Shown here: positions 34,412 through 50,238 of the stretch, one piece after another | Numbering within the stretch: position 1 is the stretch's first letter | How the letters are laid out: each line of letters starts with the position of its first letter | NCBI RefSeq assembly: GCF_008017455.1 | Contig: NZ_VRTY01000011.1 | Location: forward strand, 1 to 64,000 | From: Pontibacter qinzhouensis | GTDB lineage: Bacteria > Bacteroidota > Bacteroidia > Cytophagales > Hymenobacteraceae | Direction of reading: 5' to 3' | DNA: 64,000 nt | Notes under the pieces: generated by a model | Told to the model about the DNA's origin: nothing | Databases searched by the model: none | What the model saw: the letters and a program-made list of their open reading frames with translations, nothing else | Made by a program: the position numbers and the translations under genes

Positions 34412-34430
34412 CATTTAAATACGTTTGTCT

Positions 34431-36257
34431 ATGTCTAGTGCAGATATCTCCATTCATAAAGATGTACATCATGCTCACGATGAGCATGATCATCATCACG
34501 ATCAAAATTTCTTTGAGAAGTATATCTTTAGCCAGGACCATAAAGTAATTGGGAAGCAGTTCCTCTTTATGGGTATTCTGTGGGCTTTTATAGGTGGCTT
34601 CTTATCTATTCTGTTCCGATTGCAGTTAGGTTGGCCTGAGGCTACATTCACGTTTCTGGAACCTATTCTGGGTGGATGGATTGAGAATGGTAAACTAAAC
34701 CCGGAGTTTTACCTGGCCATGGTGACCATGCACGGTACTATTATGGTGTTCTTTGTATTGACTGCCGGTCTAAGCGGTACGTTCTTTAACTTCCTTATTC
34801 CGTTGCAGATTGGTGCGCGCGATATGGCTTCAGGCTTCATGAACATGCTTTCATTCTGGTTCTTCTTCCTGGCCAGCGTAATTCTGTTTATCTCCCTTTT
34901 CTTAGATTCAGGTCCTGCAGGTGGTGGCTGGACAGTTTACCCTCCATTAAGTGCCTTACCGCAGGCTATTGAAGGTTCTAAGTCAGGAATGACGCTTTGG
35001 CTTATTGCAATGGCGCTTTTCATTGTATCGCAGCTTTTAGGTGGTGTTAATTACATTACAACTGTCATTAACCTGCGCACTAAAGGTATGTCAATGACCA
35101 AAATGCCTTTAACAATCTGGTCATTCTTCTTAACGGCTATACTTGGCTTACTTTCTTTCCCTGTTCTTTTCTCAGCTGCCTTGTTGCTGATTTTTGACAG
35201 AAGCTTTGGCACCAGCTTTTACCTTTCTGACATCTACATTGCAGGAGAGGCTTTAGCGAACACGGGTGGTTCTCCTATCTTATTCCAGCACTTGTTCTGG
35301 TTCCTTGGTCACCCAGAGGTGTATATCGTAATTCTGCCTAGCTTCGGTATGGTGTCAGAAGTTATCTCGACCAACGCGCGTAAACCTATTTTCGGTTACC
35401 GAGCCATGATTGGTTCATTACTTGGAATTGCTTTACTTTCGTTTGTGGTTTGGGCGCACCACATGTTCGTAACGGGTATGAACCCGTTCCTTGGATCTGT
35501 GTTCATGTTCCTTACTCTGATTATTGCAGTTCCTTCAGCTGTTAAGGTATTTAACTGGTTGGCTACACTTTGGAGAGGCAATATCCGTTTTACAGCAGCC
35601 ATGATGTTCTCTATTGGTTTTGTATCGCTGTTTATAGCTGGTGGTTTAACAGGTATTATCCTTGGTAACTCTTCACTCGACATTCACCTGCACGATACTT
35701 ATTTTGTAATTGCCCACTTCCACCTTGTAATGGGAGCTGCAGCATTCTTTGGTATGTTTACAGGGGTATACCACTGGTTCCCTAAGATGTTTGGCCGCAT
35801 GATGGATGAGAAATTAGGATATATCCACTTCTGGTTAACGTTTGTGGCTGTTTACCTGGTGTTTATGCCTATGCACTACCTTGGTATTGCAGGCTTCCCT
35901 AGAAGATATTACTCCTGGACTACTTTTGATTCTTTCAGCATGTTCGGAGACTTAAATGCTTTCATTAGTATAGCTGCTATCATCGGTTTCGGAGCTCAGT
36001 TTATCTTCCTCTTTAACTTTATCTATAGCATCTTTAAAGGGCGTAGAGCTTCTATGAATCCATGGCACTCCAACACTCTGGAGTGGACAACTCCTCCGTT
36101 GCCAGGACATGGTAACTGGCCAGGTGAAATACCTGCTGTTTACAGATGGCCTTACGACTATAGCAAACCAGGTGCCGCGGAAGATTATATTCCTCAAACA
36201 GTACCTTTCTCAGAAACGCAGTCTTCAAACCTGCCGCATGAGAAAGATTTAGAGTAG
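34431..36257 (+). CDS. coxA: Cytochrome c oxidase subunit I (caa3/aa3 type)
   Basis: A 608-residue haem-copper oxidase subunit, start taken at ATG 34431 rather than the TTG two codons earlier. Twelve or so helices; the haem-copper motifs are intact: VTMHGTIMVFFV (haem a ligand), GHPEVYIVILPSFG (CuB His cross-linked to Tyr, about 294), WAHHMF (CuB), and LHDTYFVIAHFHLVMG (haem a/a3 ligands). Glu in GHPEVY marks the A1-type D-channel. The usual GGDP before helix VI reads GGSP here. The N-terminus is strikingly His/Asp-rich (HHAHDEHDHHHDQ). It reduces oxygen and pumps protons. Confidence 0.96.
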   Translation: MSSADISIHKDVHHAHDEHDHHHDQNFFEKYIFSQDHKVIGKQFLFMGILWAFIGGFLSILFRLQLGWPEATFTFLEPILGGWIENGKLNPEFYLAMVTMHGTIMVFFVLTAGLSGTFFNFLIPLQIGARDMASGFMNMLSFWFFFLASVILFISLFLDSGPAGGGWTVYPPLSALPQAIEGSKSGMTLWLIAMALFIVSQLLGGVNYITTVINLRTKGMSMTKMPLTIWSFFLTAILGLLSFPVLFSAALLLIFDRSFGTSFYLSDIYIAGEALANTGGSPILFQHLFWFLGHPEVYIVILPSFGMVSEVISTNARKPIFGYRAMIGSLLGIALLSFVVWAHHMFVTGMNPFLGSVFMFLTLIIAVPSAVKVFNWLATLWRGNIRFTAAMMFSIGFVSLFIAGGLTGIILGNSSLDIHLHDTYFVIAHFHLVMGAAAFFGMFTGVYHWFPKMFGRMMDEKLGYIHFWLTFVAVYLVFMPMHYLGIAGFPRRYYSWTTFDSFSMFGDLNAFISIAAIIGFGAQFIFLFNFIYSIFKGRRASMNPWHSNTLEWTTPPLPGHGNWPGEIPAVYRWPYDYSKPGAAEDYIPQTVPFSETQSSNLPHEKDLE

Positions 36258-36267
36258 AAATACATTA

Positions 36268-37344
36268 ATGACTAAAAATTCTTTTCCTGAAAAAAGGTTT
36301 AGAACAATTGGAATTGTAACAGTTGTTGCTGTTTATTTTCTGATACTGGTTGGAGGAATCGTGCGAAGCACTGGTTCAGGTATGGGTTGCCCAGACTGGC
36401 CAAAGTGTTTTGGCAGCTGGGTTCCTCCAACTGATGTCAGTCAACTACCTCCTGATTATCTTGAAGTTTATAAACAGAAACGTATAGATAAGAATGAGAG
36501 GTTAGCTGCCTCGTTAAGTAAATTCGGATTTACAGAACTTGCTGCTAATATATTCGCACATCCTAGTCAGTACATTGAGACGGAGTTTAATGTAACAAAG
36601 ACATGGATAGAATATGTTAACAGGCTTGTTGGTGTTTTAATCGGTATTTTCATTTTCCTGACAGTCGTTTTCTCTATTCCTTATCTAAGAAAAGATAAGG
36701 TAGTATTTTACCTGGCCTTTACCAGTTTTTTGGTGGTAGGTGTTCAAGGCTGGTTAGGTTCTATCGTGGTATCAACTAATTTGCTGCCAGTTACAGTAAC
36801 CGTACATATGGCGCTGGCATTAGTGCTTATTGCTTTGCTGGAGTACATGCTGGTGAGGTCACAGGCCAGGTCCTTTGTAAGTCGGTTTAACTTTTCGGCC
36901 AGTACCAATATGTTGCTCCTGATAGTTACAGCTATTACTTTTGTGCAAATATTAATTGGAACGCAGGTGCGGGAGGATGTTGATGTAGTAGCTTACATGA
37001 TGAATGGCACTAACAGAGAAAGTTGGATTGAGCAGTTGGGTAGATCTTTTTATATTCACCGTTCATTCTCGATTGTATTGTTAGCTCTAAACGGCTGGTT
37101 AGCTTACCAACTGTATAAGCTCAAAGACAATACCATGAGTTTGCTTTGTAACTGGATGCTGATCGTAGTAGGAGCAGAAATAGCAATAGGTGTGGTAATG
37201 GCATATTTTGCTATACCACCTGTATTGCAGCCTTTGCACCTTGTGCTTGCTACTGTTCTGTTCGGTGTACAGTTCTTTATGATTATCATTTACAATTATG
37301 CTTCTAAAGGAGCACCAAAAAAGGCAATAGCAGCAGTTAGATAA
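36268..37344 (+). CDS. ctaA: Haem A synthase (CtaA/COX15) with altered first His motif
   Basis: A 358-residue membrane protein that oxidises haem O to haem A for subunit I. It has eight helices in two pseudo-symmetric halves, with the Cys pair of GMGCPDWPKCFG (residues 40-47 approximately) in the first periplasmic loop. The second half has the expected IHRSF and PLHLVL histidines, and the first half has VTVHMALAL, but the usual ExxHR of the first half reads EYVNR (Glu115, Asn118). So one of the four classical haem-ligand histidines is Asn. This may be normal for the phylum. It sits 10 bp after coxA and overlaps ctaB by one base. Confidence 0.9.
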   Translation: MTKNSFPEKRFRTIGIVTVVAVYFLILVGGIVRSTGSGMGCPDWPKCFGSWVPPTDVSQLPPDYLEVYKQKRIDKNERLAASLSKFGFTELAANIFAHPSQYIETEFNVTKTWIEYVNRLVGVLIGIFIFLTVVFSIPYLRKDKVVFYLAFTSFLVVGVQGWLGSIVVSTNLLPVTVTVHMALALVLIALLEYMLVRSQARSFVSRFNFSASTNMLLLIVTAITFVQILIGTQVREDVDVVAYMMNGTNRESWIEQLGRSFYIHRSFSIVLLALNGWLAYQLYKLKDNTMSLLCNWMLIVVGAEIAIGVVMAYFAIPPVLQPLHLVLATVLFGVQFFMIIIYNYASKGAPKKAIAAVR

Positions 37345-38240
37345 TGTACACACAGAAATCAAACCTGATATTGTCTTGTTTACTCATGACAAATAAAGCA
37401 ACAGAATACTTTAAGCTTTTAAAGTTCAGGTTAAGTTTTGTAGTTGCTTTTTCCAGTGCTATAGGCTTTATACTTGGCCGAATGGATAGCTCATTTCTAC
37501 AGGTGGGGCTGGTATTTTTGGCTGGCATGCTCGTAACGGGGGCTGCCAATATCATTAATCAAATACTGGAGAAAGATCTGGATAAGCATATGAAACGCAC
37601 AGCAAAGCGGCCATTGCCTACTGGTCGTTTATCTGTTTTGGAGTCTGCTGTATTCGGAACTCTTATCGGCGTGTCTGGTGTGGCAATTCTTTGGTTTGTT
37701 TTCAATCCTTTAGCAGCGCTTCTCTCTTTATTATCCCTTGTCCTTTACGGTTTTGTTTATACACCAATGAAGCGTATAAGTCCTATATGCGTATTTGTTG
37801 GGGCTATACCAGGTGGCATGCCACCACTTATTGGTTGGGCGGCAGCAACTGGTGTATTAGGAGTAGAAGCCTGGATTTTGTTTGGCATACAATTCACCTG
37901 GCAGTTCCCGCATTTCTGGGCGATCGCCTGGGTACTTGATGACGACTATAAAAAAGCCGGTTTTAAAATGTTGCCTATGTCTGGTGGTAAAAACCTCAAA
38001 ACAGCTATCCAGATTATGATATATACGCTTCTGTTAATTCCACTAAGCCTGTTGCCTCTACAGTTTGGTATGACAGGTGCTACCTCAGCCTTAGTAGCTG
38101 TAGTATGTGGCGTTCTTTTTCTTGCCCAAACATTTTATCTTATGCGCACCTGCTCTAAAAAAGCAGCCATGAGTATTATGTTCGGATCTTTTTTATATCT
38201 GCCTATCGTGCAGATAGCTTTTGTGTTGGATAAAGTGTAA
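37344..38240 (+). CDS. ctaB: Protohaem IX farnesyltransferase (haem O synthase)
   Basis: A 298-residue UbiA-type prenyltransferase with about nine helices that makes haem O from haem B. The prenyl-diphosphate site is NQILEKDLDKHMKRT (about 73-87), with Glu in place of the usual first Asp, and the second motif YTPMKRISPICVFVGAIPGG is intact. Two starts are possible: ATG 37344, coupled to the ctaA stop as TAATG, and ATG 37386 (MTNKATEYFKLLKFRLS), whose N-terminus better matches the family. I list the coupled start. Confidence 0.9.
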   Translation: MYTQKSNLILSCLLMTNKATEYFKLLKFRLSFVVAFSSAIGFILGRMDSSFLQVGLVFLAGMLVTGAANIINQILEKDLDKHMKRTAKRPLPTGRLSVLESAVFGTLIGVSGVAILWFVFNPLAALLSLLSLVLYGFVYTPMKRISPICVFVGAIPGGMPPLIGWAAATGVLGVEAWILFGIQFTWQFPHFWAIAWVLDDDYKKAGFKMLPMSGGKNLKTAIQIMIYTLLLIPLSLLPLQFGMTGATSALVAVVCGVLFLAQTFYLMRTCSKKAAMSIMFGSFLYLPIVQIAFVLDKV

Positions 38241-38245
38241 TAGTA

Positions 38246-38833
38246 ATGATGGTAGCTAATAAATTAGATGAAGAAAATTCTCCGGCAGGGGTACATCCAC
38301 TAAAGTTTTCGCTTTGGTTGATTATTGTTAGTATTTTTATGATGTTTGCTGCCTTTACAAGCGCTTATATAGTTAGAAGATTTGAAGGCAATTGGTTAGA
38401 ATTTGAATTGCCAGCAGCTTTTCTTATCAATACAGTTATTATTCTGCTAAGCAGCGCCTCCATGCAATTGGCTCATAATGCAGCTAATAAAAATAACCTG
38501 CCAATGGTTAAAATTATGCTGTTGCTAACCATTGGTCTTGGAATAGCATTTTTATTTGGTCAGTTAAACGCTTGGGGAGAACTAGTTAACAATAAAGTGT
38601 TTTTTGGAGGTTCAGAAAGTAACCCTGCAGGATCATTTTTGTATGTACTAACGGGGGTACACGGTTTTCACCTTGTTACTGGTCTTATTTTCCTGTTAAT
38701 TGTTCTGGTGGCCAGCTTCAGGTTTAAAGTACATTCCAAAAGTATGCTGCAAATTCATTTATGTACCATCTATTGGCACTTTTTAGGTGGACTTTGGCTA
38801 TTTTTGTACATCTTTTTAAGAATTTATAATTAA
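38246..38833 (+). CDS. Cytochrome c oxidase subunit III, first of two
   Basis: A 195-residue subunit III/CyoC-like protein with five helices, starting MMVANKLDEENSPAGVHPLK (two adjacent ATGs). Family signatures are LTGVHGFHLVTGLIFLL and HLCTIYWHFLGGLWLFLYIF. It lies 5 bp after ctaB and 20 bp before a second, longer subunit III gene. Tandem subunit III genes are usual in this type of cluster in Bacteroidota. Subunit III stabilises the subunit I core. Confidence 0.9.
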   Translation: MMVANKLDEENSPAGVHPLKFSLWLIIVSIFMMFAAFTSAYIVRRFEGNWLEFELPAAFLINTVIILLSSASMQLAHNAANKNNLPMVKIMLLLTIGLGIAFLFGQLNAWGELVNNKVFFGGSESNPAGSFLYVLTGVHGFHLVTGLIFLLIVLVASFRFKVHSKSMLQIHLCTIYWHFLGGLWLFLYIFLRIYN

Positions 38834-38853
38834 CACGTTTTTATTATATCAAT

Positions 38854-39600
38854 ATGTCTACTTCAACTACGCTGGAAGCACCAAATTCAGGTACATGGGA
38901 CGGTGGCAACGAGCCATTAAAAGCGAGCTATGGAAAACTCATGATGTGGTTTTTCCTGCTGTCAGATGCCTTTACTTTTGGCGCTTTACTGATCGTTTAC
39001 GGTTTATCACGTCATAAGCACCTTCCTTACACCGGAGATCCTGATGCTTTCACGTTCTCAACTGAATGGTGGCCAATTCCTGAAAAGGTTTACAATGCTT
39101 TCCCTGGTTTACATGGAATGGATCTGCCTTTGGCATTCGTGGCCTTAATGACCATGATTCTGATCTTAAGCTCTGTAACCATGGTGCTGGCAGTTGAGGC
39201 GGGACATCGAATGGATAAAAACGATGTGCAGAAGTGGTTGTTATGGACGATCCTGTTTGGTAGCATCTTCCTGGGTTGCCAGGCGTGGGAGTGGGCGCAC
39301 TTTATCTCAGGCGATGATACTGGCATGGTATTATCTGACGGAACACAGATTTTCGGTGCTAACCTGACAGTGAACCAGTACGGACCTCCCTTGTTTGCAG
39401 ATCTGTTCTTCTTCATCACTGGCTTCCACGGCACGCACGTATTCTCTGGGGTAGTATTGCTGGTCATGATCTTTATTAATACGGTTAATGGTGTTTACCA
39501 TAAGCGTGGCCACTACGAAATGGTAGAAAAAGTTGGTTTATACTGGCACTTTGTAGACTTAGTGTGGGTATTTGTATTTACCTTCTTCTACTTAATTTAA
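38854..39600 (+). CDS. Cytochrome c oxidase subunit III, second of two
   Basis: A 248-residue subunit III with about six helices. Signatures: KLMMWFFLLSDAFTFGALLI, FFFITGFHGTHVFSGVVLL and the terminal GLYWHFVDLVWVFVFTFFYL, which is the conserved WHFVDxVW ending. It differs from the preceding subunit III by an inserted periplasmic loop (ISGDDTGMVLSDGTQIFGAN). A short GACC/GGTC hairpin occurs in the 67-bp gap before the next gene. Confidence 0.92.
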   Translation: MSTSTTLEAPNSGTWDGGNEPLKASYGKLMMWFFLLSDAFTFGALLIVYGLSRHKHLPYTGDPDAFTFSTEWWPIPEKVYNAFPGLHGMDLPLAFVALMTMILILSSVTMVLAVEAGHRMDKNDVQKWLLWTILFGSIFLGCQAWEWAHFISGDDTGMVLSDGTQIFGANLTVNQYGPPLFADLFFFITGFHGTHVFSGVVLLVMIFINTVNGVYHKRGHYEMVEKVGLYWHFVDLVWVFVFTFFYLI

Positions 39601-39667
39601 TTTTCGTACAACAATAAACTAAATAAATTGACCCTAAGGTCGTTTTAAAATATAGATACTGTAAGTT

Positions 39668-40015
39668 ATGGCAATGCATTCTGATCATTCACACGATTTT
39701 GACCATACCGCGGATATTCCAAAGCCGCAGACAAAGGTAATCTGGAAAACATTTTTCATATTGGTAGCTCTTACTGCCGTGGAGTTCTTGTTCGCCTTTA
39801 CCATGGATGCAGGTACACTCCGAAATGCAATCTTTATAGTGCTTACTATATTTAAAGCATTTTATATTGTAGCGGAGTTTATGCACTTAAAACACGAAAC
39901 AAAAGCTCTGATCTGGTCTGTGCTTATTCCGATGGCACTCGTTGTATGGCTAATGGTAGCACTTATTTCAGAAGGAAGTTACTACTTCGACTCTGTTGAA
40001 AATTACTTTAATTAA
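39668..40015 (+). CDS. Cytochrome c oxidase subunit IV family protein
   Basis: A 115-residue protein with three helices (about 22-42, 50-68, 78-98) of the prokaryotic subunit IV type (FLFAFTMDAGTLRNAIFIVL, AEFMHLKHETK). The N-terminus is His/Asp-rich (MHSDHSHDFDHT), like those of CoxA and ActF. It is small, membrane embedded and probably structural. It lies 8 bp before the SCO gene. Confidence 0.87.
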   Translation: MAMHSDHSHDFDHTADIPKPQTKVIWKTFFILVALTAVEFLFAFTMDAGTLRNAIFIVLTIFKAFYIVAEFMHLKHETKALIWSVLIPMALVVWLMVALISEGSYYFDSVENYFN

Positions 40016-40023
40016 TTTATAAG

Positions 40024-40692
40024 ATGAAACCTGCAAAGGCACTAATGTTAGGTCTCCTACTGTTAGTGCCTATTCTTATTTTCCTGTTTATAGGTACCTT
40101 CGGGGAACACCATTTTACGTTGAAGCATTACTTTCCGGAAACGGATAGCCGAGGTGAGATTATGTTAACGGAATCTGGTGATACTGTTTTTAAGCAGATA
40201 CCGCCATTCGCCCTTACTTCTCAGGAAGGTAAAACCGTTACAGGCAACGATCTGGAAGGTAACCTTTACGTGGTGAATTTCTTTTTCGCGTCTTGCCCTG
40301 ATGTCTGCAAAAAAATGTCGTCGCAGCTAACACGTGTGCAGGAAAAATTTCAGAAATCGCCTGATGTGAAACTTGTTTCTATCTCCATTAATCCGGAACA
40401 TGATACCCCAGAGGTGCTGCAGCAGTATGCCGATATGTACGGGGCAGACCCTGCTAAATGGTATTTTTTGACCGGAAATAGAAAGGAGATTTACACACTT
40501 GCTGAAAAAGGGTTCTATTTACCAGTGCAACAAGTGGCCGGCCAGCAGGATTTTATTCATAGCGAAAGATTTTTGCTGGTTGACAAGAACAGGAGAGTTC
40601 GGGGCATCTACGATGGCACCGACAGAGAAGATGTAGACAGGTTGATGTTAGAAATAAACGTTCTGCTGGATGAATACAGTAAAAACAAATAA
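40024..40692 (+). CDS. SCO family copper chaperone
   Basis: A 222-residue protein with one N-terminal membrane anchor (about 5-25) and a thioredoxin-like domain. Copper-binding residues are in FFFASCPDVCKKMSSQL (CPDVC, about 91-95) and the conserved His in DFIHSERFLLVD (about 180). SCO proteins deliver copper to, or reduce, the CuA site of subunit II, fitting its place in the operon. Its last 23 bp overlap the DUF420 gene. Confidence 0.93.
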   Translation: MKPAKALMLGLLLLVPILIFLFIGTFGEHHFTLKHYFPETDSRGEIMLTESGDTVFKQIPPFALTSQEGKTVTGNDLEGNLYVVNFFFASCPDVCKKMSSQLTRVQEKFQKSPDVKLVSISINPEHDTPEVLQQYADMYGADPAKWYFLTGNRKEIYTLAEKGFYLPVQQVAGQQDFIHSERFLLVDKNRRVRGIYDGTDREDVDRLMLEINVLLDEYSKNK

Positions 40693-41230
40693 TCAGAGTG
40701 CTCAGAAAGACAGAAAGTTTTTGATAGTGATTGCTGTTCTGTCGGTGGCAATTCCGGTGGTGGTGGCCATGCTATTTTTTATGCCGAAAGCAGGCTCTAC
40801 AGTAGATGTTTCTTTTCTTCCGGCTTTTCATGCTATTCTGAACTCACTTACAGCCGTAGCACTTGTTATTGGCTATATAAACATAAAACGCGGCAATACT
40901 AAGAACCACAGGGCCGCTATGCTCACGGCATTTGGTCTTTCTTCTGTTTTTCTGGTTTCGTATGTTACCTATCATTTCCTGGGTGAGCGTACTATTTACG
41001 GGGGTGATGGTTTCCTGAAAATGTTTTACTACTTCATTCTCCTGACGCACATCGTACTCGCCGTCGTTATCGTGCCATTGGTGCTGCTCTCGGTTTATTT
41101 TGGAATTACAGATCAGCGCCTGAAGCACCGTCGTATTTCCCGCTGGACCTTCCCGATTTGGTTGTATGTGGCTGTAACAGGTGTGCTGGTTTACCTGCTG
41201 ATCTCACCTTATTATAATGTAACCAACTAA
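40670..41230 (+). CDS. DUF420 membrane protein
   Basis: A 186-residue protein with five helices. DUF420/CtaM-like features include FLPAFHAILNSLTAVALVIG, KNHRAAMLTAFGLSSVFLVS and FYYFILLTHIVLAVVIVPL; the conserved His residues (FHAILN, YHFLG, LTHI) may bind metal or haem. Relatives in other phyla are assembly factors for haem-copper oxidases, which fits the context (inference). It overlaps the SCO gene by 23 bp and ends the respiratory operon. Confidence 0.88.
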   Translation: MNTVKTNNQSAQKDRKFLIVIAVLSVAIPVVVAMLFFMPKAGSTVDVSFLPAFHAILNSLTAVALVIGYINIKRGNTKNHRAAMLTAFGLSSVFLVSYVTYHFLGERTIYGGDGFLKMFYYFILLTHIVLAVVIVPLVLLSVYFGITDQRLKHRRISRWTFPIWLYVAVTGVLVYLLISPYYNVTN

Positions 41231-41530: not shown

Positions 41531-41674
41531 ATCAATACCTAAACAGATAAACTAAATAGCTTCAACAGCTGTTGAGTTAACTGACAGTATCAGATCGAAA
41601 CAATAATCGTAAAAATTAGAAGGCTTGTACCATAATACGTACGTCTTTTCATAAACTAATAATTGCACCATAAA

Positions 41675-41941
41675 ATGAAGATATCAAAACAGATTCAAAA
41701 GGTATGGCTGCTTCTTAGCTTCATGTTTGTTTTAACCATGGTTTCTACTACGGCTTACAGTCAGTGTGCTATGTGTAGAGCTACAGTTGAGTCTAATGTT
41801 GGTACTGGCAGTACAGATTCTGATTCTGATGTGGGATCTGGCTTGAACACCGGCATTTTGTACCTCATGATTATTCCTTACGTGCTGGTTGGTACGGTAG
41901 GCCTGCTCTGGTATAAGAGCAGCCGTAAAAAGAATGCCTGA
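41675..41941 (+). CDS. Small membrane protein with CAMCR motif
   Basis: An 88-residue protein with start ATG 41675 (a TTG four codons earlier is unlikely). It has a signal-like N-terminus (about 10-30), then SQCAMCRATVESN and a second helix (about 58-78) ending in basic residues (KSSRKKN). The two cysteines of CAMC form a CxxC pair just after the cleavage site. Similar small proteins near oxidase or DUF983 genes are common in Bacteroidota (recalled, not checked), but the function is unknown. It overlaps the DUF983 gene by 8 bp. Confidence 0.75.
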   Translation: MKISKQIQKVWLLLSFMFVLTMVSTTAYSQCAMCRATVESNVGTGSTDSDSDVGSGLNTGILYLMIIPYVLVGTVGLLWYKSSRKKNA

Positions 41942-42318
41942 ACCGGCAGAGGCAGAAGCCATATTGGCTAGTAAATGTCCGAGGTGCCGAAAGAGGCAGG
42001 TTTTTTAGCTCTTACAACCTGGGCAGGTACTACAGTATGCACAAGCATTGCCCTATCTGTGGTTTCTTCTACGAAGTCGAGATTGGATTCTTCTGGGGAG
42101 TGCTGTACATCAGTTGCTTTATGTCGGTAGGAATTGTGCTGCCGGTAGGTGTTTTGTTGTACTACCTGGCCGGCGACCCGCCAACCTGGGTTTATTTAGC
42201 AATGGTTGCCTCCTTCATTTTTGTTTTCACACCTTTTTTATTCAGATACGCCCGTATTCTGATGCTTCACTTTTTTTCTGGCACCAAATTAGATCCGACT
42301 TATAGCGACAAGCACTGA
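41934..42318 (+). pseudogene. DUF983 membrane protein, interrupted by a one-base frameshift
   Basis: The frame from ATG 41934 reads MPEPAEAEAILASKCPRCRK and then RQVF before a TAG. One base out of frame, starting inside the run of six T's at 42001-42006, the protein continues SSYNLGRYYSMHKHCPICGF and on through two helices to the stop at 42318. DUF983 proteins have exactly this two-CxxC arrangement (CPRC and CPIC), so both parts belong to one gene of about 127 residues. The lesion may be a real mutation, a slippage site read at low frequency, or a sequencing error in the homopolymer. The downstream part could start alone at ATG 42037. Confidence 0.8.
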
Positions 42319-42382: not shown

Positions 42383-45300
42383 TTGAATCGGAAGGTTACG
42401 CCAATTCTTTTTTTACTTCTTGCGCTGCTATGCTTTTTAGCCTCTGCTGCCCTGCATTTTAATTTGCTAACATCTAAGCCTGCCGGTAATTACGCCAGCA
42501 TTGTAGGCAACATAAACAACCTGGTAGAAGAGAGCATTGCCGATGCTAACCGAGATGCCTCTCTTATAGAAGCGCAACTAGAGCAGCACGACTTGTCTTT
42601 TTCGCAATTGCTGCACCGTACTAAGTTTCCTACCTTTATTTACAGCCAGGATCGATTGGTTTTCTGGTCCGATCACAGCATAATTCCGGACCTTGATTAT
42701 CCGCCTAAAACCATGCGGCCCACTACAGTGCGCAACGCATACGGCGCTTTTCTGGTTGTTCCGCACAAAGTGCAGTACTACGATGTGTTGGTGTACATTC
42801 CGCTGCAGATAGACTATCGCATCAGCAACAGTTATCTGTCCTCGGGGCTTCAGAAAAGTATATTTGGTAATATTGCTGCAGCATTGGTGTTAGAGCCCGT
42901 AGCACACCTGCACCACATTACCACCTCCGATGGTCAGTTTTTGTTTGCGCTCGATTTTGGTGTAGCCAAAGCCGAAGCCGGTACCGGGTCGCTGGTGTTT
43001 CTGCTGTTTGCAGCCGGCATAGTCTTCTTTGTTCTGTTCGCAGTTTACCGCAGCAGGATCTTATTTCGGAAGGGCAAACACAACGAAGGTGTATTTCAGC
43101 TGCTGGGCTTTCTGGTACTGTTCCGGGTGCTGCTGCTGGTGCTTAATCTCCCCTTTAGCCTGGTAGAAATAGAATTATTCGATCCGCGTGTGTATGCCGC
43201 CTCGTTCTGGTCTCCTTCTGTAGGCGATATGGCCATGAACATGCTGTTGCTGGCCCTAATTGCATGGGCAGCGGCTTATTTATACAAAAAGAATGAAGTA
43301 ACCAACCAGTTGTTCGTGCTGCCCAAACGGCAAGTGAGGCAATTGCTGGTAGGTTGCTTTTTAGCGTTATTTGTGTTGCTGGTGGTGCTTTACCAGTTCT
43401 ACTACGGCATTTACCACAACTCGCCACTGGTGCTCGATATCAGCCAGTCGCTTGATCTCACAAAATACAAGATCATTATTTATAGTATCATGTTTGTGCA
43501 CACGGCTTCGCTGTGTGTGTTCACGTTTATACTGGCTACTGTGGTTTCGGTGCTGTTGCAGCAGGAGGAGAAGGCATGGACCTATAAAGTATTTGGCAGC
43601 ATTGCCTTTGTTCTCCTGATTCTGTCGTCGTGGCTCACGCCGCACCTTAGCGGCCTGGCGTTTACAGGTGTCCTCTTCTGGGTCCTGATGGTGGTGTCGG
43701 CGCAGTACAAGCATGCTGTTAGTTTTCCGTATCGCAGTTACCTGTTCGTTTTCCTGATTGTAGCCATAAGTGCCTTAACCGGCGCTACTGCTATTTATAC
43801 ACATTATCAGAATGAGCTGATGGAGTATAAGCAGAAATTCGGGCGTACTATTCTGGAAGAGAATGATGTTTTAGGGGAGTACCTGCTGGAAGACGTAGCA
43901 GCCAAAATAGCAGCCGACCCGCTTATTCAGTTTAAGTTAAAGGGACCTTACGTAGATCCTTACTTTATCAGAAGGAAAATATCGAAGCACCTCCCTGATT
44001 ATTTCGATAAATACGAGACCAATGTGTTGCTCTTCGACAGCGATGGACTGGCACTCGAAAGTGCCGATAGCGCCGTGCCGACGCTACAGGAACTCATGGC
44101 CCGGTATAACACTCCCCAAACCAGAACAGAGCATAAGAACCTGTTCCTGGTGCGGGAGCCAACTAAATTTAATACCCGCACTTACCTGCAGGTTATTCCC
44201 GTTCAGATAAATAACTGGCAACGGGGCACCATTATTCTGCAACTAAGCCTCAAGAAGCTGCTGCCCAACAGTGTGGTGCCGGAGCTGCTGGTAGACCAGA
44301 AACACAACCAGCCTTTCCGGGCCGACATGCTGAGTTATGCTTTGTACGACGGTGGCAAGCTAAGCTACAGTGAGGGCGAATACGATTATGCCACCAACTT
44401 TAACAAATCGCTTGTTAACAGGAGTGAGTTCTACAGAAAAGGTACGACCAGCGAAGGCTACCATCATGTAGGCATCCGGAACGATAAGGCGCAGGAGCAG
44501 ATTCTGGTTATCACGACAGAGCAGTACGGCGGGCGCGAGCTGCTGTCTAACTTTTCTTTTCTATTCCTGTTTTTTACGGGCGGCGTAATTATCTGCGTGT
44601 TTATTGGCTTGTTGCTCCAACGCCATAGCTTTAAAGCCTATAGCCCCAATTTCAGTACTAAAATCCAGATTTTCCTGAACTTTGGCATTCTGTTGCCTTT
44701 GCTGCTGGTGAGCCTGGTTACGGCCAGCCTGGTAACCGCCTCTTACCGCAAAGACCTGATGCGCTCTTATGAGCAGCGTGGGGAGTCTATTCAGGAGAAC
44801 CTGAGGAGGGTTATAAAGAGGGACCTGATGTCGCAGAAAAACTGGCTGTTGCGGCATGTAACGGAGGTAGCTGCCATATCGGAGGCAGATGTGAACGTGT
44901 ATAACCGCTATGGCCGGTTGTTGGTAACCAGCCAGCCACTTATTTTTGAAGCTGGTTTGCTCTCGCAGCTTATTAACCCGGAGGCGTTTGCTGCCATTTC
45001 GGAACGGCAGGCCCTGCGTGTGCTGTTAGATGAGCGAGCTGGCAACCTGACTTTTAACGCCGTTTACCTGCCGCTGCACGAAGGCGAGAACTCAGACCAG
45101 ATCGCAGGCTTTATCGGCATTCCGTTCTTTAACTCAGAGAAACAGCTCGACCTGAAACTGATTGAGCTGGTTACCACCATCATGAACATTTTTACCGTGA
45201 TGTTTATGATGTTTATCATTCTCACATTTTTTGCTTCGCGGGCACTAACTGTACCCTTGCGTATGTTGGCTAATAAGCTAAAGCAAACATCCCTGACCGG

Positions 45301-46090
45301 GAAAAACGAAATGCTTGCTTACGAAGGAGCCGATGAAATAGGAATGTTGGTACAAGAGTATAACCGGATGCTGCTGACACTGGAGCAGAACAAACTAGAG
45401 CTGGCCATGCGCGAGAAGGAAGCGGCATGGCGGGAAATGGCGCGCCAGGTGGCACACGAGATCAAGAACCCGCTAACGCCCATGAAGCTCTCGCTGCAGT
45501 ACCTGCAGAAAGCCATTGCTGAGAAAAAGCCAAATACCGAACAACTGATCGATAAGATTTCGCATACCCTTATTACTCAGATAAATATATTAAGCGACAT
45601 TGCCACGTCGTTCTCTAATTTTACGTCGATGCCGGAGCCGAAGGTAGAACCTATGGATATGGCAGAAGCCTTGCGCAAAGCCGTAGACCTGCACCACGAT
45701 ACGGCGACAGCCTCCATTACGACAGCTATACCATCCGTTCCGGTTATAGTTCTGGCAGATGAAAGCCTGATGGTGAGATGCTTTAATAACCTGCTCCTGA
45801 ACGCTATTCAGGCAGTGCCTACAAGCCGAAAACCAAAGATAAATGTGTCGTTAGAAATAGACGCGACTGGTAAGGTGCTGATTTCGATACAAGACAATGG
45901 AAACGGCATTCCGGCTGATATCCGGAACAGGGTGTTTATTCCGAACTTCAGTACGAAGTATACAGGTTCGGGCATTGGACTGGCCGTAGCGAAAAAGGGA
46001 ATAGAAAATGCAGGCGGAAGTATCTGGTTTGAGACGGAGGAAGAGAAAGGCACTACATTTTTTATAGCATTACCCTTGGCGCAGCCATGA
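42383..46090 (+). CDS. Large membrane sensor histidine kinase, NtrY-like
   Basis: A 1235-residue kinase. The only plausible start is TTG 42383 (reading as MNRKVTPILFLLLALLCF), since an in-frame TAG lies six codons upstream and no ATG is close. It has an N-terminal helix, a periplasmic sensor part (about 30-190), a block of about eight helices (about 200-480), a second extracytoplasmic region, a further helix pair, HAMP (about 945-1000), HisKA with the phosphorylated His1025 in RQVAHEIKNPLTPMKLS, and HATPase with DNGNGIP and GSGIGLAVAKKG. No response regulator is adjacent. The SprA-like gene overlaps its stop (ATGA), so the two are translationally coupled. Confidence 0.88.
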   Translation: MNRKVTPILFLLLALLCFLASAALHFNLLTSKPAGNYASIVGNINNLVEESIADANRDASLIEAQLEQHDLSFSQLLHRTKFPTFIYSQDRLVFWSDHSIIPDLDYPPKTMRPTTVRNAYGAFLVVPHKVQYYDVLVYIPLQIDYRISNSYLSSGLQKSIFGNIAAALVLEPVAHLHHITTSDGQFLFALDFGVAKAEAGTGSLVFLLFAAGIVFFVLFAVYRSRILFRKGKHNEGVFQLLGFLVLFRVLLLVLNLPFSLVEIELFDPRVYAASFWSPSVGDMAMNMLLLALIAWAAAYLYKKNEVTNQLFVLPKRQVRQLLVGCFLALFVLLVVLYQFYYGIYHNSPLVLDISQSLDLTKYKIIIYSIMFVHTASLCVFTFILATVVSVLLQQEEKAWTYKVFGSIAFVLLILSSWLTPHLSGLAFTGVLFWVLMVVSAQYKHAVSFPYRSYLFVFLIVAISALTGATAIYTHYQNELMEYKQKFGRTILEENDVLGEYLLEDVAAKIAADPLIQFKLKGPYVDPYFIRRKISKHLPDYFDKYETNVLLFDSDGLALESADSAVPTLQELMARYNTPQTRTEHKNLFLVREPTKFNTRTYLQVIPVQINNWQRGTIILQLSLKKLLPNSVVPELLVDQKHNQPFRADMLSYALYDGGKLSYSEGEYDYATNFNKSLVNRSEFYRKGTTSEGYHHVGIRNDKAQEQILVITTEQYGGRELLSNFSFLFLFFTGGVIICVFIGLLLQRHSFKAYSPNFSTKIQIFLNFGILLPLLLVSLVTASLVTASYRKDLMRSYEQRGESIQENLRRVIKRDLMSQKNWLLRHVTEVAAISEADVNVYNRYGRLLVTSQPLIFEAGLLSQLINPEAFAAISERQALRVLLDERAGNLTFNAVYLPLHEGENSDQIAGFIGIPFFNSEKQLDLKLIELVTTIMNIFTVMFMMFIILTFFASRALTVPLRMLANKLKQTSLTGKNEMLAYEGADEIGMLVQEYNRMLLTLEQNKLELAMREKEAAWREMARQVAHEIKNPLTPMKLSLQYLQKAIAEKKPNTEQLIDKISHTLITQINILSDIATSFSNFTSMPEPKVEPMDMAEALRKAVDLHHDTATASITTAIPSVPVIVLADESLMVRCFNNLLLNAIQAVPTSRKPKINVSLEIDATGKVLISIQDNGNGIPADIRNRVFIPNFSTKYTGSGIGLAVAKKGIENAGGSIWFETEEEKGTTFFIALPLAQP

Positions 46091-49000
46091 TGAGGCAGCT
46101 CTACCTTATACTATTTTTTCTCGGTTTATGCTTACCTGCATTGGCGCAGGCACCAGTCAATAACAAGCGCTGCCAATGGATACCTGTATCCGCAAACCCT
46201 GTCGTGCTCGATTCTCTCACGCTGCTGCCTTCTACTGTTTCTTTTTTCGGCCCCAACAACAAACAATACGCATTCGATTATAGCTACACCACCAACGAGT
46301 TCCGCTTAACCAAATGGCCACAGCCCGATTCTGTGGGTGCAAAAGTAGCAGATTCTGTGTTGGTCTGTTTTAGAGTGATGTCGTTGAACCTGACGAAACC
46401 AGCTTATAATCGCGACATTACCAAGCTCGATGTCAGCTCCTTTAAAGACGATTTTTACCAGGAGGATTTTACAACACGCGAAGAAATTTTTAAAACACCA
46501 GGCCTGAACAAAACAGGTAGCATCTCCAGAGGCGTGTCGTTTGGTAATACGCAAAACGTGTTTGTAAATTCAGCCCTAAACCTGCAGCTCGATGGTAAAC
46601 TGACCGATGATATCAGTATAACAGCAGCCATCACCGACCAGAACATACCCTTTCAGCCGGAGGGCAACACGCAGCAACTGCAGGAGTTCGACCGTGTGTA
46701 TATCACCCTCAAGCACAAGCAATGGCAACTAACAGCAGGCGATGTGGTGTTGCAGAGCCGGCCATCGTACTTTCTGCAATACTATAAAAACGTGCAGGGC
46801 GCAGCCTTCGAAACCATTACCGGCAAATCGCCGGAGCGGCAGGGCATTACCACGGTGGCTGCCTCGGTATCTAAAGGTAAATTTGCTTCGCAAACAGTGC
46901 AGGCGCTGGAGGGCGTGCAGGGGCCTTACCGGCTGCGTGGCCCCAATAACGAGCGTTTTATTATTGTGCTGGCCAACTCCGAGCGTGTATTCCTAGATGG
47001 AAGGCTGCTGACCCGTGGCTTCGACTTCGACTATACTGTAGATTACAACCAGGCAGAGATCACTTTTACCACTCGCCACGTTATTACCAAGAATTCCCGC
47101 ATTAAAGTAGACTTCGAGTACTCCGACATGAACTACAGCCGGAGCATCTATAACATGAGCCATTACCAGACCTTTGGTAAGATGAAGGTGTACGCCAACT
47201 ACTATAACGAATCTGATAACCCGAACAACCTCCTGAACCTGGACCTGCGCGACGACGACAAACGCTTGCTGGCCAGCATCGGCGATAGCCTGAACATGGC
47301 GGTTATTCCGGGAGCAACTGAAGTAACCTTCGACCCAAACCAGGTGCTGTACGCGAAACTCGATACTATTTATAACGAAGGCCAGGGCTTTGCCACCATC
47401 TACCGCTACTCTACTAACCCCGATTCGGCTATGTACAATGTGCGCTTTACGGAGGTGGGGCCTAATGCCGGCGATTATGTGGCTGCCAACTCTACTGTGA
47501 ATGGCAGAGTCTATACCTGGGTGGCACCAGTTAACGGTGTGCCGCAAGGCAGCTATGCACCGGTGCGCATTCTGCCAACGCCACGTAAGAAACAGCTTGT
47601 AAACCTGGGAGCCTCCTATGAGCTGCAAAAAGGCGTAAACTTCTTTGTAGAAGGTGCCGTTTCGGAAAACGACCTGAACCGCTTCTCTAAACTCGATTCG
47701 CACGACGACCAAGGCATGGCCGTGCGGGTAGGGTACACCGTGCAGGACAAGGAGGTGTCGTTGCTGGGAGCTTACAAAGTTAACAGCGTGCTGAACTATG
47801 AATTTACGGATGAGAACTTTCTGCCCATAGACCGTTACCGGCCCATCGAGTTCGACCGCGACTGGAGTTTAACGGGGGCAGAGCAGAAAGCGGCAGATCA
47901 TATCTTTAACTTTTCGGTGGGGGCCACCAAAGATCAGCACAACATGTTCAACTATCGCATCAGTCACCGAAACCGTGATTCGCAGCTCAACGGCATGCAG
48001 CATTCCCTCGATGTGGTGCAACGGCTGGGCCGGGTGGACTTGCAGAACAGCTTCTTTATGCTCAACAGCGCACAAGGAGAACGGGAGTCTGATTGGGTGC
48101 GGGGCGATGTAGGTATAAAATACAACACCCGCTGGCTGGTGCCGGGCTATGTGTATCGTTTCGATAAAAATAAAATTACAGCAGCAAGCACTGATGCCGT
48201 TATAGCATCGGCCATGTATTTCGATGAGCACCTGTTTTATGTGCAAAGTCAGGATACTGCTAAAACAAAGTTCCGCCTAGACTACAGTCACCGCACCGAT
48301 CTCCGCCCCACAGAGAACGGCACCATGGGGCTGCCGGAGGTAGGGCAGACCTATAACGGAACTGTGCAGACAAAGCTAGGGCAGGAGAACGACCTGGCCC
48401 TGCAGGTAACGTACCGGAAACTGGAGTTAGCCACAGCCCAAAACGAAGAAACAGTGCAATCGCGGGTAGACTGGAACGGCAGTTTTCTGGATGGTAGTTT
48501 CCGCTCTGAGTTCAGCTACTCAGTAGGCACGGGGCGCGAACTGAAGCGGATATTTATTTTCAGGGAGACGCTGCCGGGGCAAGGAACCCACTACCTACGT
48601 GAAGGTGGCAACCTCAACGACCTGAACGATTACCTCGAAGCCCAAACCATAGACCAGCAACGCTACATCAAAATATTTCTGCCTACCGACGAGTACATAA
48701 ATGCCTACACCAACCGCTTTACCTACCGCCTCAATAGTGCCACTCCCCGCAGCTGGCACAATCAGAAAAACTGGAAAGGACTGGCTTCTCATTTTTCGGT
48801 GTTGACGTTTGTGAGCATCGACAAAAAAACAACCGATGAAGATTTAACGAACAGGTTCAACCCTTTCAGCGAGAATTTCGATGATGAGTTCCTGATCTCG
48901 ATGGTGAAGTCGTTGCGGAACACGTTTTATTTTAACCGGACCAATCCCAAATACGGTTTAGAGTATACGGTGCAGCAGAACCAGCAGAAGTCGCTGCTGA

Positions 49001-49557
49001 CCAATGGGGCCGAAACCAGGAGCCTCGGGAGCCATGCCGTAATAGGCAGGCTCAACTTAAACGAGGTGATGAGCTCTAAACTTAGTGTGGGGCAGCACAT
49101 CCGTGATAATCGTTCTAATTTCCTGTCTTCTAAAAACTTCAGAATCGTATCGAAGGAGCTAACGCCGGAACTGAGTTATCAGCCAGGTACGAAGCTGCGT
49201 TTTACCGGAACATACCAATATGCAGTGCGCCAGGATGTGCTGCAAGCTGATGAGGCGGCGCAGCAGGAGGGGGTGTTTCATGAGCTGGGCCTGGAGACTA
49301 AGCTGAACCAGGTAAGCAAGCGCACACTGGCCGGCACGGTTCGGTATGTCAATATCCATTTCGAAGGCGATCAGCAGACCTTTGTGGCCTACGAGATCCT
49401 GAATGCTCTGCGACCCGGTAACAACCTGACATGGTCGTTTAATGTGCAGCAGCGCCTGAGCAATGGCCTTAACATTTCGGTGAACTACGATGGCCGGAAA
49501 GCTAACGGAATAGGAGCGGTGCATACTGGCAGAACCCAGGTTTCGGTGCTGTTTTAG
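46087..49557 (+). CDS. SprA-like outer-membrane protein
   Basis: An 1156-residue protein with a signal peptide (1-20, ending PALAQ) and no further membrane helix. The segment from about 145 to 220 (SRGVSFGNTQNVFVNSAL, LQLDGKLTDDISITAAITD, IPFQPEGNTQQLQEFD, LTAGDVVLQSRPSYF) is typical of SprA and related Bacteroidota proteins. The remainder is rich in alternating aromatic beta-strands, ending in VSVLF, as expected for an outer-membrane barrel. SprA itself is the much larger translocon of the type IX system; this shorter relative is a separate family of unknown role. Its start overlaps the kinase stop (ATGA at 46087-46090). Confidence 0.7.
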   Translation: MMRQLYLILFFLGLCLPALAQAPVNNKRCQWIPVSANPVVLDSLTLLPSTVSFFGPNNKQYAFDYSYTTNEFRLTKWPQPDSVGAKVADSVLVCFRVMSLNLTKPAYNRDITKLDVSSFKDDFYQEDFTTREEIFKTPGLNKTGSISRGVSFGNTQNVFVNSALNLQLDGKLTDDISITAAITDQNIPFQPEGNTQQLQEFDRVYITLKHKQWQLTAGDVVLQSRPSYFLQYYKNVQGAAFETITGKSPERQGITTVAASVSKGKFASQTVQALEGVQGPYRLRGPNNERFIIVLANSERVFLDGRLLTRGFDFDYTVDYNQAEITFTTRHVITKNSRIKVDFEYSDMNYSRSIYNMSHYQTFGKMKVYANYYNESDNPNNLLNLDLRDDDKRLLASIGDSLNMAVIPGATEVTFDPNQVLYAKLDTIYNEGQGFATIYRYSTNPDSAMYNVRFTEVGPNAGDYVAANSTVNGRVYTWVAPVNGVPQGSYAPVRILPTPRKKQLVNLGASYELQKGVNFFVEGAVSENDLNRFSKLDSHDDQGMAVRVGYTVQDKEVSLLGAYKVNSVLNYEFTDENFLPIDRYRPIEFDRDWSLTGAEQKAADHIFNFSVGATKDQHNMFNYRISHRNRDSQLNGMQHSLDVVQRLGRVDLQNSFFMLNSAQGERESDWVRGDVGIKYNTRWLVPGYVYRFDKNKITAASTDAVIASAMYFDEHLFYVQSQDTAKTKFRLDYSHRTDLRPTENGTMGLPEVGQTYNGTVQTKLGQENDLALQVTYRKLELATAQNEETVQSRVDWNGSFLDGSFRSEFSYSVGTGRELKRIFIFRETLPGQGTHYLREGGNLNDLNDYLEAQTIDQQRYIKIFLPTDEYINAYTNRFTYRLNSATPRSWHNQKNWKGLASHFSVLTFVSIDKKTTDEDLTNRFNPFSENFDDEFLISMVKSLRNTFYFNRTNPKYGLEYTVQQNQQKSLLTNGAETRSLGSHAVIGRLNLNEVMSSKLSVGQHIRDNRSNFLSSKNFRIVSKELTPELSYQPGTKLRFTGTYQYAVRQDVLQADEAAQQEGVFHELGLETKLNQVSKRTLAGTVRYVNIHFEGDQQTFVAYEILNALRPGNNLTWSFNVQQRLSNGLNISVNYDGRKANGIGAVHTGRTQVSVLF

Positions 49558-50193: not shown

Positions 50194-50238
50194 AACCGGT
50201 TGCTTTGGTCTTTATGACTAAAGCAACCGGTTTTTTTT
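50194..50238 (+). terminator. Strong intrinsic terminator of the small lipoprotein gene
   Basis: AACCGGTTGCTTTGGTC (50194-50210) pairs with GACTAAAGCAACCGGTT (50216-50232) around the loop TTTAT, with one G-U position and a run of eight T's (50231-50238). Confidence 0.93.

Follow-up and report, generated by a model that had tools for sequence, protein, structure and literature searches.

The envelope of Pontibacter qinzhouensis may be monitored by a split two-component system whose sensor kinase and response regulator are encoded far from each other. The kinase gene lies in the first 64,000 nucleotides of contig NZ_VRTY01000011.1 (assembly GCF_008017455.1), the stretch analysed here and called the window, where it overlaps the gene for a giant outer-membrane β-barrel protein. 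In the reading we favour, this envelope-sensing kinase signals to an unlinked regulator on contig C160; the barrel would be an outer-membrane channel expressed together with the kinase but separable from it. We hold this reading tentatively, at a confidence a little short of even. The gene pair comprises the following features.

42383..46090, + strand: sensor histidine kinase gene, 1235 residues, TTG start, NtrY/WalK-like, orphan (open reading frame list, Pfam, AlphaFold2)
46087..49557, + strand: giant SprA-like outer-membrane β-barrel gene, 1156 residues, ATG start, no Pfam family
46087..46090, + strand: ATGA, the 4-nt stop/start overlap of the kinase and barrel genes

A preliminary description of this DNA had reported a TTG-started kinase of 1235 residues that overlaps the barrel gene by ATGA, and both the coordinates and the overlap proved exact. 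The non-ATG start is plausible because Pontibacter relatives have TTG or GTG at this site. Assigned by a mechanical first-in-frame rule, the kinase start is TTG in 7/9 relatives and GTG in 2/9. Downstream of the barrel gene the larger open reading frames are on the opposite strand.

The absence of a response regulator next to the kinase, also noted in that description, holds well beyond this locus. The P. qinzhouensis genome encodes 64 receiver domains and none is found on C13, the contig of the kinase locus. We then searched 81 kinase loci picked for spread (the P. qinzhouensis locus, 60 from the order Cytophagales and 20 from outside the order, a few of them truncated at contig ends) with a profile built from 30 receivers. 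A regulator gene at most two genes away from the kinase was detected at 2/81 loci and at none of the other 79, so that a kinase regularly accompanied by its own regulator elsewhere was not found. Five Pontibacter loci (L161-L164, L167) carry a receiver gene in second position downstream of the kinase, on the opposite strand; the other 68 of 73 loci have none there, and these genes were set aside as incidental.

Five receiver proteins of the genome contain a sigma-54 AAA+ domain. Two of these, on contigs C160 and C146, have no adjoining kinase in 3.5 kb, as judged by reading. The C160 regulator (G000:C160) has 388 residues composed of a receiver, a Sigma54_activat AAA+ domain and AAA_lid_14. 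It matches no Fis-type or other DNA-binding family and ends soon after AAA_lid_14. Its GAFTGA motif is replaced by GSFTSA, and the two other orthologues among the three inspected have GSFTSA and GAFTSA. The C146 regulator, which has GAFTGA and a longer C-terminus, was used as control. Relatives of the C160 regulator outside the class are mostly longer frames of ~458-480 residues, and the DNA-binding domain of this regulator type may have been lost within the class of Pontibacter.

A search for co-occurring orphan regulators of the NtrC type, suggested as a check on the earlier description, identified the unlinked C160 regulator as the closest companion of the kinase among the proteins compared. 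Among 148 Cytophagales genomes both proteins occur in 110 and neither in 30, while five have only the kinase and three only the regulator (phi coefficient 0.848). Control values with the kinase in the same genomes were 0.53 for the barrel, 0.469 for PorX, 0.438 for SprA and 0.271 for the C146-type regulator. In the 130 genomes of the order with PorX and SprA, both partners are present in 106 and both are missing from 17; four have the kinase only and three the regulator only. Joint absence is also seen within families. In family f9, kinase and regulator are missing from five genomes of the genus g45 that have kept the barrel, PorX and SprA, and both are present in the other sampled f9 genomes; in family f11, three g54 genomes and one g57 genome are without kinase and regulator and the other six have both. 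Outside the order, "kinase implies regulator" holds and the converse fails. Of 51 Bacteroidia genomes, 13 give a strong full-length kinase match and all of these have the regulator (E <= 1e-140); no kinase match was obtained in the five that lack the regulator, three of which keep the barrel. We found no description of the kinase-regulator pair in the open-licence PMC literature.

We propose that the kinase acts as an envelope sensor, for which its three extracytoplasmic regions, its eight-helix block and its WalK-like CACHE-transmembrane-HAMP-kinase end would be suited, and that it most likely phosphorylates the C160 regulator. The regulator would in turn act via its AAA+ domain or via partner proteins, and not as a classical sigma-54 activator. 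The barrel would be a separate, phylum-wide outer-membrane channel, co-expressed with the kinase and not obligatory in the signalling pathway.

Several observations weigh against this proposal. Outside the order the regulator can do without the long kinase: 33 of 46 regulator genomes there lack a strong full-length kinase match (13 weak, 20 none), and in family f26 (possibly Flavobacteriaceae) a similar, perhaps orthologous kinase of ~490 residues is present instead. Because so many genomes outside the order have the regulator without the long kinase, we lowered our confidence from an even level to slightly below it. One partner stands alone in 8/148 genomes, seven of which are <=93% complete, and G093, at 99% complete, has the kinase without the regulator. 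The two genes lie close together in G039 only (2.8 kb; 1/25 same-contig pairs), which we do not count as evidence. Shared ancestry, together with reduced genomes in which many genes are missing, confounds the co-occurrence. As the genomes are related, few of the joint losses are effectively independent; our estimate for the order is only about two to six. The counts are uncorrected for the tree, and Fisher values computed from them overstate the association. Finally, the adjacency of kinase and barrel, kept across nine families, argues for some functional link between these two.

The preliminary description took the translational coupling to suggest that the state of the barrel is sensed by the kinase or needed for it. 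The two would then form a dedicated sensor-effector module in which the kinase responds to the state or assembly of the outer-membrane protein. Conservation of the pair lends this some support. In 35 of the 93 Cytophagales genomes that have both, representing 9 families and 19 genera, the barrel gene follows the kinase gene on one strand at a distance of no more than 3 kb, and the arrangement is therefore not confined to a single species. Among the best 80 titled loci, a set skewed toward close relatives, the kinase is directly upstream of the barrel in 70 and separated from it by a gene in three; in the remainder it is absent within the flank (four) or the contig edge intervenes (three). Where the kinase is upstream, the barrel ATG is at -4 in 14/73 loci and at -1 in 6/73. 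Mapped on a quick kinase tree of 59 members from the order, which came with a long-branch warning, adjacency needs eight changes. The simplest reading of the sequences is that the arrangement is old within the order and has repeatedly been broken up. We infer that the two genes are co-expressed in Cytophagales, where they would often be co-transcribed and in some species translationally coupled.

The distribution of the two proteins speaks against a dedicated module. The kinase is present in 115 of the 148 genomes and the barrel in 100, with the kinase lacking a barrel in 22/115 and the barrel lacking a kinase in 7/100 (two of the seven are 84% complete). Even where both occur, they are apart in 58/93 genomes, distant on one contig in 11 and on different contigs in 47. 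At the 20 kinase loci from outside the order, none of the sequence stretches examined contains the barrel, and the five g45 genomes retain the barrel without kinase and regulator. The association of the kinase with the barrel is no better than that of the barrel with the regulator (phi 0.532). Sensing of the barrel, or dependence on it, is not supported by these data, and we consider a dedicated module unlikely. The barrel count leaves out G005, whose sole match is an SprA-sized frame (E 1.1e-4), and the adjacency count leaves out G115, whose barrel is split over two contigs, the first part following the kinase.

In four genomes from outside the order, the kinase is immediately followed by a long open reading frame (cluster c46) that was considered as a second barrel and rejected, as the barrel profile gave no match to it at E up to 10; we take its sequence to be a UvrD/AddA-type helicase. 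A recurring convergent gene pair behind the kinase or barrel was seen at L039, L042, L045, L051, L086, L094, L096 and other loci. From reading the sequences these are presumably MlaF/MlaE-type ABC transporter genes, followed by SDR-type and ispG-type genes.

The genes upstream of the kinase suggest another alternative, in which the kinase gene ends a cytochrome-oxidase operon and its product monitors respiration or the biogenesis of the oxidase, the barrel being carried along as a passenger.

34425..41230, + strand: cytochrome c oxidase genes COX1, CtaA, UbiA family (CtaB-like), two COX3, COX4_pro, SCO1 and DUF420
41663..41941, + strand: small membrane protein, cluster c3, no Pfam family
42037..42318, + strand: DUF983 protein directly upstream of the kinase

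We read the locus as the old tail of a Cytophagales operon. At least three oxidase-operon families surround the kinase in 22 of the 61 loci of the order, distributed as 13/21 loci with an adjacent barrel, 4/21 with the barrel elsewhere and 5/19 without a barrel, and the gene for the cluster c3 protein precedes that of the kinase in several other genomes too. The other 39/61 loci, which include some truncated at contig ends, have two such families at most, and the two marker clusters scored occur in 0/20 loci outside the order. The predicted sensor domain nearest the kinase core is of the CACHE type, and CACHE domains usually bind small ligands, which weighs against this alternative. We regard a respiratory role as improbable. 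At the other end of the locus, a strong terminator-like stem of 17 pairs (50194-50232) separates the barrel gene from a threonine dehydratase gene that converges on it; scans for stems of this type are not evidence of function.

We consider it very improbable that PorX, the orphan regulator of type IX secretion, has its missing partner in this kinase. The P. qinzhouensis genome does encode PorX (receiver and PglZ) at a distance from the locus (G000:C183), and such a partnership would explain the SprA-like barrel adjoining the kinase, but 20/33 kinase-free genomes still have PorX and its distribution (phi 0.469) disfavours it.

The proposed signalling from the envelope to the C160 regulator draws on the predicted architecture of the kinase. 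We modeled residues 1-1010 with AlphaFold2 using 61 sequences (mean predicted local distance difference test score 81.1, predicted template modelling score 0.75) and located the following parts.

42398..42472, + strand: first transmembrane helix, residues 6-30 (AlphaFold2 helices, hydropathy)
42482..42955, + strand: first extracytoplasmic region, residues 34-191, alpha/beta (AlphaFold2)
42983..43855, + strand: extra multi-helix block, residues 201-491, eight long helices (AlphaFold2, hydropathy)
43868..44521, + strand: second extracytoplasmic region, residues 496-713, alpha/beta (AlphaFold2)
44729..45172, + strand: third extracytoplasmic domain, residues 783-930, CACHE/PDC type (structure alignment, Foldseek)
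45233..45388, + strand: HAMP-like segment, residues 951-1002 (Pfam 18.8 bits, under the cut-off of 25)
45428..45601, + strand: HisKA phosphoacceptor domain, residues 1016-1073 (Pfam)
45758..46081, + strand: HATPase_c, residues 1126-1233 (Pfam)

The model gives eight long helices at residues 201-491, in agreement with the extra multi-helix block described before. The first extracytoplasmic region appears sensor-like by inspection only, and both it and the second are barely covered by matches to PDB structures, so no known fold was assigned to them. Two long helices separate the second from the third extracytoplasmic part in the model. The third is best matched in VIA alignments by the extracellular domain of WalK (4ywz_B) with Z 12.8 and a root mean square deviation (RMSD) of 2.9 over 140 aligned residues, and other CACHE sensors also match it in both Foldseek and VIA. 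HisKA and HATPase_c, both clear matches, are preceded by a transmembrane helix and the sub-threshold HAMP. No PAS family was detected in the kinase at E<=1 with Pfam, and 0/25 NCBIfam models among the matches shown reach their own cut-off.

Kinases of other sizes were encountered as well. At L297-L305 (family f26) the ~490-residue kinase resembles the last third only (one sensor domain, HAMP and core), and in many of these loci it adjoins genes for ~260 and ~180 residues; it may be a shortened form without the multi-helix block. A kinase of intermediate size, 935 residues, is found at L295 and L296 (family f27). L083 (G055) has a second kinase-related open reading frame of 435 residues upstream of the full kinase, with one of 1296 residues between them.

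The barrel protein begins with a signal peptide and ends in a C-terminal Phe, as read from the sequence. It matches no Pfam family at E<=1, and a scan of 29 family members at E<=0.1 returned seven weak families, SprA_N not among these. The sole NCBIfam row is short and sub-threshold (E 0.06), and sequence searches of the PDB gave at best E 0.18 with the single sequence and 0.57 with a profile. With a profile from 29 relatives we detected the family in 147/247 genomes sampled across Bacteroidota. Listed open frames of these relatives are mostly 1,130-1,330 residues long, and the closest titled relative is a Pontibacter beigongshangensis protein with 92% identity. An AlphaFold2 model based on 59 sequences (mean predicted local distance difference test score 80.3, predicted template modelling score 0.66) shows these regions.

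46504..49554, + strand: barrel region, residues 140-1156, predicted ~38-40 long strands (AlphaFold2)
46912..47469, + strand: residues 276-461, the only segment with an SprA profile match; conserved residues

The figure of ~38-40 strands is an approximate count from the DSSP list of the model, and a closed barrel of this size is putative. Two cysteines ahead of the barrel region, C29 (46171-46173) and C94 (46366-46368), are >=90% invariant in the 59-sequence alignment and perhaps form a disulfide in the N-terminal domain. The protein probably serves as a channel in export or assembly. The open-licence PMC literature yielded no description of the family.

SprA is the 36-strand barrel of the type IX secretion system (PMC12611786, PMC9581022). 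The available parts of these two papers do not name a second single-chain barrel of SprA size alongside it; the nine-chain CsgG barrel is also mentioned in PMC9581022. SprA (PF14349; PDB 6H3I, 8GL6) holds Foldseek ranks 1, 2, 5 and 7 for our barrel model, with E 1.8e-8 for 8gl6_A and 6.3e-7 for 6h3i_A. The longest VIA alignment shown, to 8gl6_A, covers 682 residues between model positions 138 and 1156 (Z 14.6, RMSD 8.8). Comparison with a profile of 16 full-length SprA sequences gave one local match, barrel residues 276-461 against SprA columns 677-836, which is weak (pairwise E 1.3e-4, probability 53.8%). On the other hand, the structural alignments have only 6-12% identity, TM-scores of 0.15-0.26 and large RMSD. 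FimD ushers reach a higher Z than SprA (17.9), but over 353 aligned residues and model residues 137-793 only, and many smaller barrels also match over ~230-300 residues. Part of the structural match to SprA may therefore reflect general barrel shape, and other barrel families may fit as well.

Judged by its model, the protein is SprA-like in fold; it is not a member of the SprA family, because it lacks the SprA_N domain, has half the length and is encoded in a genome with SprA elsewhere. SprA has ~2390 residues against 1156 here, SprA_N (PF14349) is unmatched in the barrel protein and its 28 relatives while the same Pfam model detects SprA in 138/148 Cytophagales genomes, and a separate SprA gene is present on contig C152. 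The earlier statement that the protein resembles part of SprA thus stands by fold and by one weak profile match and falls by Pfam and NCBIfam family. The two are perhaps distant kin.

Parallels to the proposed kinase-regulator pair exist in several known systems. We take the kinase to be NtrY-like from its kinase-core motif and its extracytoplasmic part with multiple transmembrane helices. Like NtrX of the alphaproteobacterial NtrY/NtrX system, the predicted partner on C160 combines a receiver with Sigma54_activat and has no canonical GAFTGA; Caulobacter NtrX is likewise described as lacking GAFTGA (PMC10274813). Unlike in that system, kinase and predicted regulator are unlinked with no adjacent ntrX, the kinase matches no PAS family and the C160 regulator has no C-terminal DNA-binding domain. 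WalK (YycG) provides the top structural match of the third sensor domain, but our kinase has two more extracytoplasmic regions and the eight-helix block, and scores 99.1 bits with the HK_WalK NCBIfam equivalog, whose cut-off is 725. PorX/PorY (PMC4800418) is a Bacteroidota two-component arrangement with separate genes; it resembles our pair in its separately encoded partners and differs in that the distribution of PorX does not follow the kinase.

Taken as a whole, Bacteroidota may possess a second SprA-like giant channel of ~38-40 strands, possibly the largest single-chain barrel and found phylum-wide, which Cytophagales would express together with a three-sensor kinase whose signal goes to an unlinked AAA+ regulator free of a DNA-binding domain. 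This combined picture is possible, though we regard it with some doubt. A second giant barrel so common in the phylum and without a Pfam family raises the question of what cargo it moves or what structure it assembles. If the kinase-regulator pair is real, two signalling proteins that are both widespread but encoded apart would belong to one pathway, open to tests in laboratory strains. Overall, two predictions of the analysis are testable: that kinase and regulator form a split two-component pair, and that the barrel is a second giant barrel of the SprA-like kind.

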